Assembly: GCF_003385845.1 (NCBI RefSeq)
Contig: NZ_QRDJ01000007.1
Location: forward strand, 275,380-339,379
Direction: 5' to 3'
DNA from: Kushneria indalinina DSM 14324
GTDB taxonomy: Bacteria > Pseudomonadota > Gammaproteobacteria > Pseudomonadales > Halomonadaceae
Length of the DNA: 64,000 bases
Positions 44,855 to 48,012 of the stretch are shown here, piece after piece. Each line of letters begins with the position of its first letter. Positions within the stretch are counted from its first letter, which is position 1. The notes under the pieces are model-generated. The model made no database searches, had not been told where the DNA came from, and saw only the letters and a program-made list of their open reading frames with translations. Position numbers and translations under genes: made by a program.

Positions 44855-46342
44855 ATGTCTGACAGTCCCCTTGCCTGTGCCACCCGCCCCTCACCGCTTT
44901 ATGCCCTGCTCGAGGAGATGCGCGAAGGCGTCATCCTGCTGGGCCCGGATGGCACGCTGTGCTGGGCCAACCAGGCCGCACTGGCCATGCACAACGCCCA
45001 TGATATCGAGTCGCTGGGCCTTGATATTGCCGAGTACCGACAGCGCTTTCAGCTGCGCTTTCGACCGCCCGATATAGAGGATGACTCACTGGTGCCCGCC
45101 CTGCTGGCAGGCACGCCCTTTGACGAGATCGGCGTGGAGATCATGCTGCCGGGCCCGGAAGAGGTTCTGCGCGTTCACAGCATCCGGGGGCGGGTGCTGT
45201 CCAGCGACGACGGCGCCCACCTGGCCGCCCTGCTGATCGAGGACATCACGGAGCTGGTCAGCGCCGAGGACCGCTTCGAGAAATCCTTCAATACCAACCC
45301 GGCCCCTGCCCTGATCTGTCGACTGCGTGATCAGTGCTTCATCCGCGTCAATCAGGGATTTCTGGACATGACCGCCCTGGAAGAGGATGACGTGCTCGGG
45401 CGCACCCTCCATGATCTGGACGTCTTTGCCGGCGCCGACCAGCGTGACCAGGCGCTTCGCCGCCTCGATGAAGGCCTGATGATTGCGCAGATGGAAGCCG
45501 TACTGCATCCGGGCGCCACGGGGGAAAGCAAGTGTGTCGTGGTGGCCGGGCAGCCCATCGAGGTCAATCAGGACGCCTGCATGCTGCTGACCTTTACCGA
45601 CCTCGAGCCCATTCGGCGTGCCCAGACCGCGCTGCGTCGCAGTGAGAACCAGTTTTCAACGCTGTTTCACATGTCACCGGTGCCCACGGCGCTGGCCGAC
45701 TGCCGAACGCTGTCACTGATCGAAGTCAATGAAGCCTTCAACACCACTCTGGGAGACGCCGCCGGGGCGTTCACTACCGGCCGGCTGGAAGAGCACGTAC
45801 TGCTGACCTCGCCGATCCGCCAGTGCATTCTGGCCGCGCTTGAGGCCGGTAATGCCCTGAGCGGATTTGAAAGCAGTGTGACCAACCAGCGCGGCGAGCG
45901 CCTGACCTGTCTGATTTCGGCCACGCTCGTGCAGATCGATGAGCACGACCGGGTGCTGCTGACACTGGTGGATATTACCGAGCGCAAGCGCAGTGAAGCG
46001 GAGCTCTTTGCTGCCATCGACACCGTCATGCAGGACGCCTCATGGTTTACCCGCACGCTGGTCGAAAAGCTGACCAGCGTGCGTCATGCCAGTGGTCCCG
46101 ACCCCGCCCCGATGCCACCAGCCGTCAGCCTCAGCCTGCGCGAGCACGACGTGCTGGCCCTGCTGTGTCAGGGCCTGTCCGACAAGCGTATTGCCGCCGA
46201 GCTGGCACTGGCCCACAGCACGGTGCGCAACTACGTCGCCTCGCTGTATCGCAAGCTGGATGTTCACAGTCGCAGCGAGGCGATCATTGTCGCGCGCCAG
46301 CAGGGGCTGGACGGCAGGCCGGACGCAGAGAAGAGATCATGA
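44855..46342 (+). CDS. PAS-sensor LuxR/NarL-type transcriptional regulator
   Basis: 495 residues without membrane segments: three PAS-like domains (about 15-125, 135-260, 265-385; LLGPDGTLCWANQAAL, FIRVNQGFLDMTALEEDDVL, LIEVNEAFNTTLGDA) and a C-terminal GerE/LuxR helix-turn-helix (LSLREHDVLALLCQGLSDKR, then AHSTVRNYVASLYRKL). A one-component cytoplasmic sensor; ligand unknown. The gene directly precedes the GGA-rich RNA (about 100 bases), on the same strand, so it is a natural candidate to control it (inference). GTGAGC... no; ATG 44855 has GGAG upstream. Confidence 0.85.
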   Translation: MSDSPLACATRPSPLYALLEEMREGVILLGPDGTLCWANQAALAMHNAHDIESLGLDIAEYRQRFQLRFRPPDIEDDSLVPALLAGTPFDEIGVEIMLPGPEEVLRVHSIRGRVLSSDDGAHLAALLIEDITELVSAEDRFEKSFNTNPAPALICRLRDQCFIRVNQGFLDMTALEEDDVLGRTLHDLDVFAGADQRDQALRRLDEGLMIAQMEAVLHPGATGESKCVVVAGQPIEVNQDACMLLTFTDLEPIRRAQTALRRSENQFSTLFHMSPVPTALADCRTLSLIEVNEAFNTTLGDAAGAFTTGRLEEHVLLTSPIRQCILAALEAGNALSGFESSVTNQRGERLTCLISATLVQIDEHDRVLLTLVDITERKRSEAELFAAIDTVMQDASWFTRTLVEKLTSVRHASGPDPAPMPPAVSLSLREHDVLALLCQGLSDKRIAAELALAHSTVRNYVASLYRKLDVHSRSEAIIVARQQGLDGRPDAEKRS

Positions 46343-46409
46343 ACCGTCGCTGAACAGCGACAGGGCATGCCCTGCAAATGCACCCTGCCCGCCGGTGCAT
46401 CTGTATCTA

Positions 46410-46436
46410 TTGGCTCCGTTGTAAAGCCGCTATATT
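46410..46436 (+). promoter_or_regulatory. Weak candidate promoter of the GGA-rich RNA
   Basis: TTGGCT (46410-46415), 15-base spacer, TATATT (46431-46436). The spacer is short. I looked for a GacA-type upstream site (TGTAAG-N6-CTTACA) and did not find one. Confidence 0.35.
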
Positions 46437-46440
46437 GCTC

Positions 46441-46670
46441 ATGGCTTGAGGCGGTGCCAGGAAGGCGCCAGGACAGAAGGACCTGGCTAATGAAGGGAAT
46501 CATGTTCCTCGGGCCCGGCACCTGCCCGGGCAACCGGAAGGTGTCCGCCAAGGGAAGACAGGACGCGCCAGGGACGACACCCGCGTCGACCCGGCAAGGC
46601 CCAGGGACGGGCCCCATGGCAGGATGCCATGGAGGTCAGTGATGACAATTGCCGGGTCACCTTCTTGTAC
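46441..46670 (+). ncRNA. Structured GGA-rich RNA, CsrB/RsmZ-like candidate
   Basis: No coding character in 46343-46690, but 11 GGA triplets in about 230 bases on the plus strand, several in hairpin loops: GGTGCC-AGGAA-GGCGCC (46453-46469), CCAGG-(9-base loop with AAGGA)-CCTGG (46468-46486, partly alternative to the first), GGCCC-AGGGAC-GGGCC (46598-46613) and CCATGGC-AGGAT-GCCATGG (46614-46632). The last two are enclosed by a perfect 10-base long-range stem, GACCCGGCAA (46588-46597) with TTGCCGGGTC (46649-46658). GGA in hairpin loops is the CsrA/RsmA binding signature, so this is a likely CsrA-titrating RNA. Ends are estimates; the 3' end (CTTCTTG) is a poor T tract. Confidence 0.65.
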
Positions 46671-46690
46671 GCCACACCACGCCTCATCCC

Positions 46691-47005
46691 CTACACAATG
46701 CTTTTGAGCCCGCGCTCAAGCGCCTCATGATCCGTCGGGCGCACGCAGCGTGAGCGCTCCTCGCCACCCTTCAAAAAGATCAGCGTCGGCCAGAGCTTGA
46801 CCTGATAGCTCCGCCCCAGCCGCTTGCCCTTGCCATCCTCCACCCGAATGTGGCGCACGCCGGGTGCCTGATCAATCACCGCCTGGATCAATGGCTGCGC
46901 GGCCTTGCAGTGGCCACACCAGGGCGTGCCGAATTCCACCACCACCGGCCCCTGGCTGGCATCGAGTTCGCTTCGCTCGGGAACGACGCTATCGGGCATG
47001 GTCAT
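46691..47005 (-). CDS. Thioredoxin family protein
   Basis: 104 residues, cytoplasmic. Active site WCGHCK in EFGTPWCGHCKAAQPL, with cis-Pro in VKLWPTLIFLKGG. Start at ATG 47005 follows GGAGG with 6-base spacing. Function: dithiol reductant, not the canonical TrxA (which has WCGPC). Transcribed divergently from nothing on its left; it converges on the GGA-rich RNA. Downstream of YedI and SQR genes on the same strand. Confidence 0.87.
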   Translation of the reverse strand: MTMPDSVVPERSELDASQGPVVVEFGTPWCGHCKAAQPLIQAVIDQAPGVRHIRVEDGKGKRLGRSYQVKLWPTLIFLKGGEERSRCVRPTDHEALERGLKSIV

Positions 47006-47088: not shown

Positions 47089-48012
47089 TTAGTGGGCTCC
47101 GCGCATCCTTTGCACCAGTGATACCGCGCCCAGAATCAGCCCGCCCAGCACCAGCCCTACCAGCATATTGATCAGCGTGGGCGTGATCGGCTGCAAAATG
47201 ACGCCAACGCCTGGAATGTCGCCTTCGGCCAGCGTCAGCGCCTGGATGGCATGATGCAGCACCGGTATGCCGTGGGTCAGGATACCGCCGCCGACCATGA
47301 ACATGGCCGCCGTGCCGGCAATGGATAGAAACTTCATCAGCCACGGCGCGGCCGTCAGGATGCCACGCCCCAGCGACTGTGCGATGGAGGCGCTGCGACG
47401 GCTGAGATACAGCCCCAGATCATCCAGCTTGACGATCGCTGCCACCAGCCCGTACACGCCCAGCGTCATGGCCAGAGCGATAATCGAGAGCACCACGACC
47501 TGCTGCATGAAGGCCGCCTCGGCCACGGTGCCCAGCGTGATGGCAATAATCTCCGCCGATAAAATGAAATCGGTCCGCACCGCGCCCTTGATGCGCTTTT
47601 GCTCAAAGGCTTTTTGCTCCTCCGGAGAACGCTCGGCGGTTTTGGCGTCCTTTTTGGCCGCCTGCGGATGTCGCCACTTGTGCCAGGCATGGGCCAGCTT
47701 CTCCACACCTTCATAGCTGAGATAGGCGCCGCCCAGCATCAACAGCGGCGTGACCAGCCAGGGGGCAAAGGCACTGATCAAAAGCGCCGCCGGCACCAGT
47801 ATCAGCTTGTTGCGCAGCGAGCCCTTGCAGACCGCCCACACCACCGGCAGCTCCCGTTCGGCGCGCACGCCGGTGACCTGCTGAGCGTTCAGCGCCAGGT
47901 CATCACCCAGTACACCGGTGGTTTTTTTGGCGGCCACTTTCGTCATGACGGAGACGTCATCCATTAAAGCGGCAATATCATCAAGCAGGGTTAACAGACT
48001 ACCAGCGGCCAT
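47089..48012 (-). CDS. yedI: DUF808 family inner membrane protein
   Basis: 307 residues with about seven helices. GSLLTLLDDIAALMDDVSVM at the N-terminus, KKTTGVLGDDLALNAQQV, and the KRIKGAVRTDFILSAEIIA segment are diagnostic of YedI/DUF808. Function unknown. A Lys/Glu-rich cytoplasmic loop (about 110-140) separates the two halves. Confidence 0.93.
   Translation of the reverse strand: MAAGSLLTLLDDIAALMDDVSVMTKVAAKKTTGVLGDDLALNAQQVTGVRAERELPVVWAVCKGSLRNKLILVPAALLISAFAPWLVTPLLMLGGAYLSYEGVEKLAHAWHKWRHPQAAKKDAKTAERSPEEQKAFEQKRIKGAVRTDFILSAEIIAITLGTVAEAAFMQQVVVLSIIALAMTLGVYGLVAAIVKLDDLGLYLSRRSASIAQSLGRGILTAAPWLMKFLSIAGTAAMFMVGGGILTHGIPVLHHAIQALTLAEGDIPGVGVILQPITPTLINMLVGLVLGGLILGAVSLVQRMRGAH

Follow-up and report, generated by a model that had tools for sequence, protein, structure and literature searches.

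In Kushneria indalinina DSM 14324, the stretch of 64,000 nucleotides that was analysed (hereafter, the window) contains a 348-base gap at 46343-46690, which lies between a regulator gene on the plus strand (44855-46342) and a convergent thioredoxin-family gene on the minus strand (46691-47005; Pfam PF00085). The regulator, defined by its open reading frame and by Pfam, is a 495-aa protein with PAS domains and a C-terminal GerE (LuxR) helix-turn-helix, and Pfam found no receiver domain in it; we refer to it as “PAS-LuxR.” On the plus strand of the gap we place an RNA with GGA hairpins at 46443-46658, based on an alignment (A2), covariation, and DNA matches, with the thioredoxin-family gene outside it. 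Its start is inferred from a -10 box and its 3′ end is not fixed: the RNA reaches at least to a closing stem, hence a length of ~215 bases or more. The gap was matched at the DNA level in 7 of 10 Kushneria genomes, K. indalinina DSM 14324 included, and all 7 displayed, when aligned, the identical order of PAS-LuxR gene, gap, and thioredoxin gene; a PAS-LuxR ortholog was found in 8/10 (E<=1e-60). Beyond the thioredoxin gene, a DUF808 gene (47089-48012) lies near the RNA in Kushneria, and a DUF808 gene was also seen directly 3′ of the RNA in a genome of another genus (G018; L145:3276-4214).

Conserved GGA-loop hairpins in the gap

Three hairpins stand closest to the 5′ end of the RNA. The first, SL1 (46453-46469; GGTGCC-AGGAA-GGCGCC), had 97.6% of cells paired, a folding energy of -11.2 kcal/mol, and one pair that was changed on both sides among the 7 Kushneria. 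SL2 (46474-46485; CAG-AAGGAC-CTG) kept five stem pairs in 15/15 sequences of three genera, and a predicted 5-bp stem at 46468-46486 competes with it in this genome. SL3 (46490-46503; loop AGGGAA) is a weak hairpin of only -0.7 kcal/mol, almost invariant across the aligned Kushneria and paired in 96.4% of cells. Further downstream, a hairpin at 46562-46587 presents AGGGA in a 12-nt loop (95.7% of cells paired, two pairs changed on both sides); for the segment 46566-46592 folded alone, another pairing was preferred over it. A 10-bp closing stem, formed by 46588-46597 with 46649-46658 (98.6% of cells paired, two pairs changed on both sides), encloses the last two hairpins within 46588-46658: GGCCC-AGGGAC-GGGCC at 46598-46613 (89.3% of cells paired, -10.2 kcal/mol, a double-sided change in one pair) and a hairpin with the loop AGGAT at 46613-46633 (92.9% of cells paired, -13 kcal/mol, no pair with a double-sided change). 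The latter includes the perfect 7-bp stem at 46614-46632 (CCATGGC-AGGAT-GCCATGG). A previous reading of the letters alone (the “sequence-only reading”) had claimed hairpins at 46453-46469, 46598-46613, and 46614-46632 along with the perfect 10-bp stem, and each was found exactly there.

Over the stretch that starts at the -10 box and ends with the closing stem, the 7 Kushneria gaps align with a mean column identity of 89%. We drew a structure of local hairpins by hand while viewing these same 7 sequences; RNAalifold, in its global fold of the 7 RNAs, links distant segments in the 5′ half, and the local hairpins were chosen instead. In the drawn structure, 96.3% of cells were paired (slid controls, 22-42%), 7 of 51 pairs were changed on both sides, and 7 to 9 GGA per RNA remained unpaired. 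The covariation score amounted to 0.175 versus 0.121 in shuffles, with 0/500 shuffles as high. The number of doubly changed pairs is a less clear measure, matched by 15/500 shuffles, and the count of further pair types was no better than in shuffles, 249/500 of which did as well. As shown by computation, the RNA encoded in the gap is conserved and structured, and its GGA hairpins covary.

The abundance of GGA itself turned out to be a poorer guide. A recount agreed with the 11 GGA previously reported for the plus strand of the gap; the accompanying expectation of ~4 was too low, as shuffles give 7.2-7.5. For the segment 46441-46670, the expectation is 6.4-8.0 (mono- and dinucleotide shuffles) versus 11 observed, and the raw count alone (P 0.03 to 0.10) is therefore weak evidence, near chance. 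In a scan of 230-base windows on both strands (step 10), this segment was the densest GGA stretch of the window: 5 of 12754 scan windows reached 11, and elsewhere the count never exceeded 9. The 7 aligned Kushneria have 8 to 11 GGA per gap. Hairpins are the better signal. By a strict rule (stem of at least 5 bp, GGA in a loop of 4-8 nt), the RNA contains 3 hairpins versus 0.45 in shuffles, 0/200 of which reached 3, and the opposite strand of the gap contains 0. Folding energy cannot choose the strand, because the complement folds equally well (z = -4.21, versus -4.24 for the RNA strand).

Rfam yielded no match at gathering score in the window or in 19 related loci, and at E<=10 only unrelated families matched 46200-46900; the cut-offs of CsrB, CsrC, RsmX, RsmY, PrrB_RsmZ, and TwoAYGGAY were not reached. 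The RNA, which had not been recognised as a described family member before, is thus no member of the described Rfam families by this test either. For RF00166, 0/10 Kushneria genomes scored over the cut-off, and weak hits appeared in 9/10 as well as in 8/14 control genomes; these hits were set aside, and terminators are seen in the majority of the loci fetched. One such weak locus (L095) led to the eno-fdxA region, where 9/9 Kushneria examined (G001 excluded) have 11 to 21 GGA versus 6 to 10 TCC, and 2 to 5 GGA hairpins versus 0 or 1 on the opposite strand. In G000, this region (~8070-8640 of L160, G000:C1:160000-172000) has 16 GGA versus 6 TCC. By eye, the region has a terminator-like end. No DNA match was seen that would link this region to the window RNA. 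With the region found, the window RNA was no longer regarded as the genome's only one of its kind. A literature search found no report of a CsrB-type RNA in Kushneria or Halomonadaceae.

A dyad tied to the PAS-LuxR gene

Upstream of the RNA lies a 31-bp dyad, GCAAATGCAC-N11-GTGCATCTGT (46374-46404, plus strand), an inferred operator that fits 18/20 arm positions of the consensus GCAAATGCAC-N11-GTGCATTTGC. This consensus, which was derived from the relatives' own sequences, occurs 26 nt before the -10 box in 16/16 Halomonadaceae with a PAS-LuxR gene, with 16 to 18 of 20 arm matches. In this genome, the inferred -10 hexamer is TATATT (46431-46436), 26 nt after the dyad, a spacing kept in Halomonadaceae: the fit to TATAAT averages 4.12 of 6 at offset 26, versus 2.25 at the next best offset. 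Outside the family the fit is less sharp (3.1 at offset 26, 2.84 at 24). Consensus scans of 46300-46800 gave no sigma-70 promoter with a recognisable -35 and no intrinsic terminator. A site just upstream of the -35 region is the usual place for activators.

Apart from the dyad at 46374-46404, no site in this genome comes as close as 2 mismatches to the search pattern; at one mismatch or fewer, 8/10 Kushneria have one site per genome, and G006 and G008, which have no PAS-LuxR, gave no site. If two mismatches are allowed, G003, G004, G007, and G009 have 1 to 3 more sites, a number similar to that from a reversed control pattern (0 to 2).

We then have 76 further loci with a PAS-LuxR gene (L012-L087), 74 of them from outside Halomonadaceae and two (L016 and L074) from within. 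Calling a dyad at 14 or more arm matches, within 260 bases 3′ or 270 bases 5′ of the gene, we found it downstream of the gene in 65/76 loci, versus 28/1704 other pieces of the same loci, and also upstream in 54/76. These computations show that the dyad is tied to the PAS-LuxR gene and stands at a fixed distance to the -10 box. By crude text rules, the gene after the dyad was CsbD-like in 36 of the 65 loci, DUF1652-like in 22, and of another kind in 7; the 11 loci without a dyad of 14 or more were left out, the rules caught the wrong frame in L038, and two genes classed as “other” resemble CsbD or DUF1652 on inspection. Three CsbD loci, one Halotalea CsbD, and one DUF1652 were confirmed by Pfam. 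No report of the PAS-LuxR/csbD pair was found in a literature search.

As a separate observation, the regulator is widespread (Pseudomonas, Xanthomonas, Serratia, Lysobacter, Paraburkholderia), and its gene is flanked by the dyad both downstream and upstream. A membrane protein encoded divergently precedes PAS-LuxR in the loci read; the one tested had no Pfam match.

The unit, GacA, and CsrA in Halomonadaceae

Among 250 sampled Halomonadaceae genomes, 16 carry a PAS-LuxR ortholog (E<=1e-60). They fall into 4 of the 24 genera, with Kushneria contributing 8 genomes, genus g4 5, g16 2 (one of which, G024, is identical in sequence to the Halotalea of L074), and g10 1. All 16 loci have GGA-loop hairpins directly 3′ of the gene, 2 to 6 each by the strict rule within ~290 bases, versus 0 or 1 on the opposite strand; in 12/16 loci 5 or fewer of 200 shuffles did as well, and in the other 4 it was 10 to 26. 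Over the first 240 bases past the -10 box, GGA outnumbers TCC in 16/16, narrowly (5 to 4) in the two g16 genomes. SL2 could be aligned by its loop in 15/16 loci from three genera (G018 excluded), and its loop always contains AGGA or GGGA. Stem pairs 2, 3, 4, 6, and 7 were paired in 15/15, and at four of these five positions two or three types of base pair occur. SL1 holds in Kushneria and g4 and pairs poorly elsewhere. A covariance model of the Kushneria RNA (R1) gave 14 matches in the 250 genomes, of which 7 in Kushneria and 2 in g4 were strong and full-length, so outside Kushneria such matches came from two genomes only; R1 misses the remaining PAS-LuxR loci. The other 5 matches (E 0.003-0.005) were taken as chance, four being partial and one lying off the PAS-LuxR locus in G018. 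G006 and G008 lack the entire unit of PAS-LuxR, dyad, and RNA, and they, like the other Kushneria examined, have the eno-fdxA GGA-hairpin region; the window RNA is therefore not indispensable.

With the UvrY/SirA/GacA model (E<=1e-60), GacA/UvrY was detected in 228 of the 250 family genomes (163 above the curated cut-off) and in 0/10 Kushneria; E. coli was the only control genome matched. The best match of this genome reached 106 bits versus a cut-off of 280 and scores NarL-like. The gacA gene usually sits near uvrC; a response-regulator query of the surroundings of uvrC (up to 1.5 kb) gave nothing in 10/10 Kushneria and a match in 11/11 control loci. The reported lack of a GacA box was reproduced as well: the best match in 46200-46445 was 7 of 12, no better than in shuffles. 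GacA was absent from 11/16 genomes with the unit versus 11/234 others (P = 5e-10). Counted by genus, it was absent from 3/4 with the unit versus 4/20 without (P = 0.06), and since genomes within a genus are not independent, the association with loss of GacA is no more than suggestive. Five g4 genomes have both the unit and GacA. Seven of the 24 sampled genera (g1, g8, g10, g14, g16, g17, and g18) showed no GacA at E<=1e-60, and four of these seven also lack the PAS-LuxR unit. Each of the 10 Kushneria genomes has one csrA. The functionally relevant residues L4, R6, R7, V42, R44, and I47 are present in the four CsrA sequences read, this genome's own not among them.

Interpretation and relation to known systems

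We consider it likely that the gap encodes a CsrA-titrating RNA under a PAS-LuxR activator that stands in for GacS/GacA, where CsrA binding, transcription, and activation are inferred. The RNA probably works like CsrB/RsmZ, again with CsrA binding as an inference. The sequence-only reading had proposed just such a likeness, control by something other than GacA, and the neighboring PAS-LuxR gene as a candidate regulator. The first gains support from stems that covary around GGA loops, the second from the genus in which no GacA was found, and the third from a conserved dyad that ties the gene to the RNA promoter and to the downstream promoters of its homologues. In the proposed mechanism, the GGA loops of several hairpins on a free-standing RNA of ~215 bases or more would bind CsrA dimers, and this capture would relieve CsrA-controlled mRNAs. 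The inferred promoter has a poor -35, and the dyad upstream of it would, by inference, be the operator of the PAS-LuxR protein. Upon sensing of a signal by its PAS domains, PAS-LuxR on the dyad would recruit RNA polymerase and switch on the RNA. The RNA may be the main or only target of the regulator in Kushneria, and the unit would supply a CsrA input where GacA is missing. The role of PAS-LuxR as the activator of the RNA remains inferred in both its parts, regulator binding and activation, and so do the transcript ends and the signal.

Could the RNA instead be a CsrA-binding 5′ leader that acts in cis, of which Kushneria keeps only a remnant? Halotalea displays such an arrangement: its RNA lies between the dyad-promoter and csbD (CsbD by Pfam), the start codon of which is 296-297 nt after the dyad, and in other families a csbD or DUF1652 gene follows the same dyad. 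In Kushneria, however, the next gene runs the opposite way, ending at 46691; a crude motif screen found no CsbD-like gene within 1.5 kb downstream in 11/11 Halomonadaceae loci, and csbD sits elsewhere in the screened genomes. Covarying stems around GGA loops, moreover, would not have survived in a remnant, and we regard a leader as improbable. It also seems unlikely to us that the RNA titrates CsrA under another LuxR-type or response regulator, or that PAS-LuxR acts as a repressor via the dyad. There are no binding data, g4 has the RNA alongside GacA, and the second dyad, upstream of the gene in 54/76 loci, would fit autorepression too. Against this, dyad, RNA, and PAS-LuxR co-occur in Kushneria (8 with, 2 without), and the dyad lies just upstream of the -35 region at a fixed distance from the -10 box, where activators usually bind.

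We give still less credit to a structured RNA that does not bind CsrA, such as an sRNA that acts by base pairing or a 3′ UTR on the PAS-LuxR mRNA, with its GGA owed to composition. The RNA does directly follow the PAS-LuxR stop codon, and its GGA count is only modestly above expectation (11 versus 6.4-8.0), but GGA is kept in the loop while stem bases change, the loops fit the A(N)GGA sites of CsrA RNAs, and a promoter of its own, inferred from the -10 box and dyad, is conserved. Finally, the absence of any functional RNA, with the gap being conserved regulatory DNA or a small protein gene, is hardly tenable: this is conserved DNA between two genes and a 91-aa frame is open on the plus strand here, but the gap alignment, with its 1- and 4-base indels, breaks the frames and leaves none open through all 7 relatives, and conservation spans the whole part inferred to be transcribed and follows base pairing.

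For the origin of the CsrA-titrating RNA, the hairpins in front of csbD in Halotalea suggest that it began as a leader. In this scenario, which we put forward tentatively and would not bet on, an old PAS-LuxR regulator, elsewhere found with csbD or DUF1652 downstream, came in some of the Halomonadaceae to drive GGA hairpins within the leader of csbD, as still seen in Halotalea. The CsrA sponge would have arisen there and later become free in Kushneria and g4, as the gene dropped out of that place, and PAS-LuxR would have taken over the GacS/GacA input in lineages without GacA.

CsrA-titrating RNAs form a central lifestyle switch in Gammaproteobacteria. Their general description is as outputs of GacS/GacA (BarA/UvrY) (PMC7652899), and another source gives the titrating RNA of Halomonas as unknown (PMC7366521). 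Kushneria, a genus without detected GacA, has a new RNA of probable CsrA-sponge type with an apparent one-component input. Such an RNA in this genus makes both a Csr input without GacA and the origin of new CsrA sponges open to test. The dyad, in turn, is a ready candidate binding site for a widespread and apparently unnamed PAS-LuxR regulator, the usual neighbor of which is the csbD stress gene.

With RsmX/RsmY/RsmZ and CsrB/CsrC, the window RNA shares several hairpins with GGA loops, its inferred nature as a non-coding stand-alone RNA, and a csrA gene in the genome. It differs from them in having neither an Rfam match nor a GacA box, in belonging to a genus without GacA found, and in its different kind of dyad beside a PAS-LuxR gene. 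The csbD and DUF1652 loci of Pseudomonas, Xanthomonas, Lysobacter, Serratia, and Paraburkholderia have an orthologous regulator (44-48% identity) with the same dyad directly downstream of its gene, but what follows the dyad-promoter in those loci, at 30-150 nt, is a protein gene, and they contain only 0 to 2 GGA hairpins each; on these grounds, a GGA RNA behind the dyad was rejected for Pseudomonas and the others. The eno-fdxA region resembles the window RNA in its GGA-loop hairpins and occurs in the same Kushneria genomes, but has another place and sequence and is also present in the two Kushneria without PAS-LuxR. It occupies the position of rsmZ in Pseudomonas, adjoining fdxA. Because of this region, Kushneria probably has two CsrA-titrating RNAs, with CsrA binding inferred, and that of the window would be the one with PAS-LuxR input.
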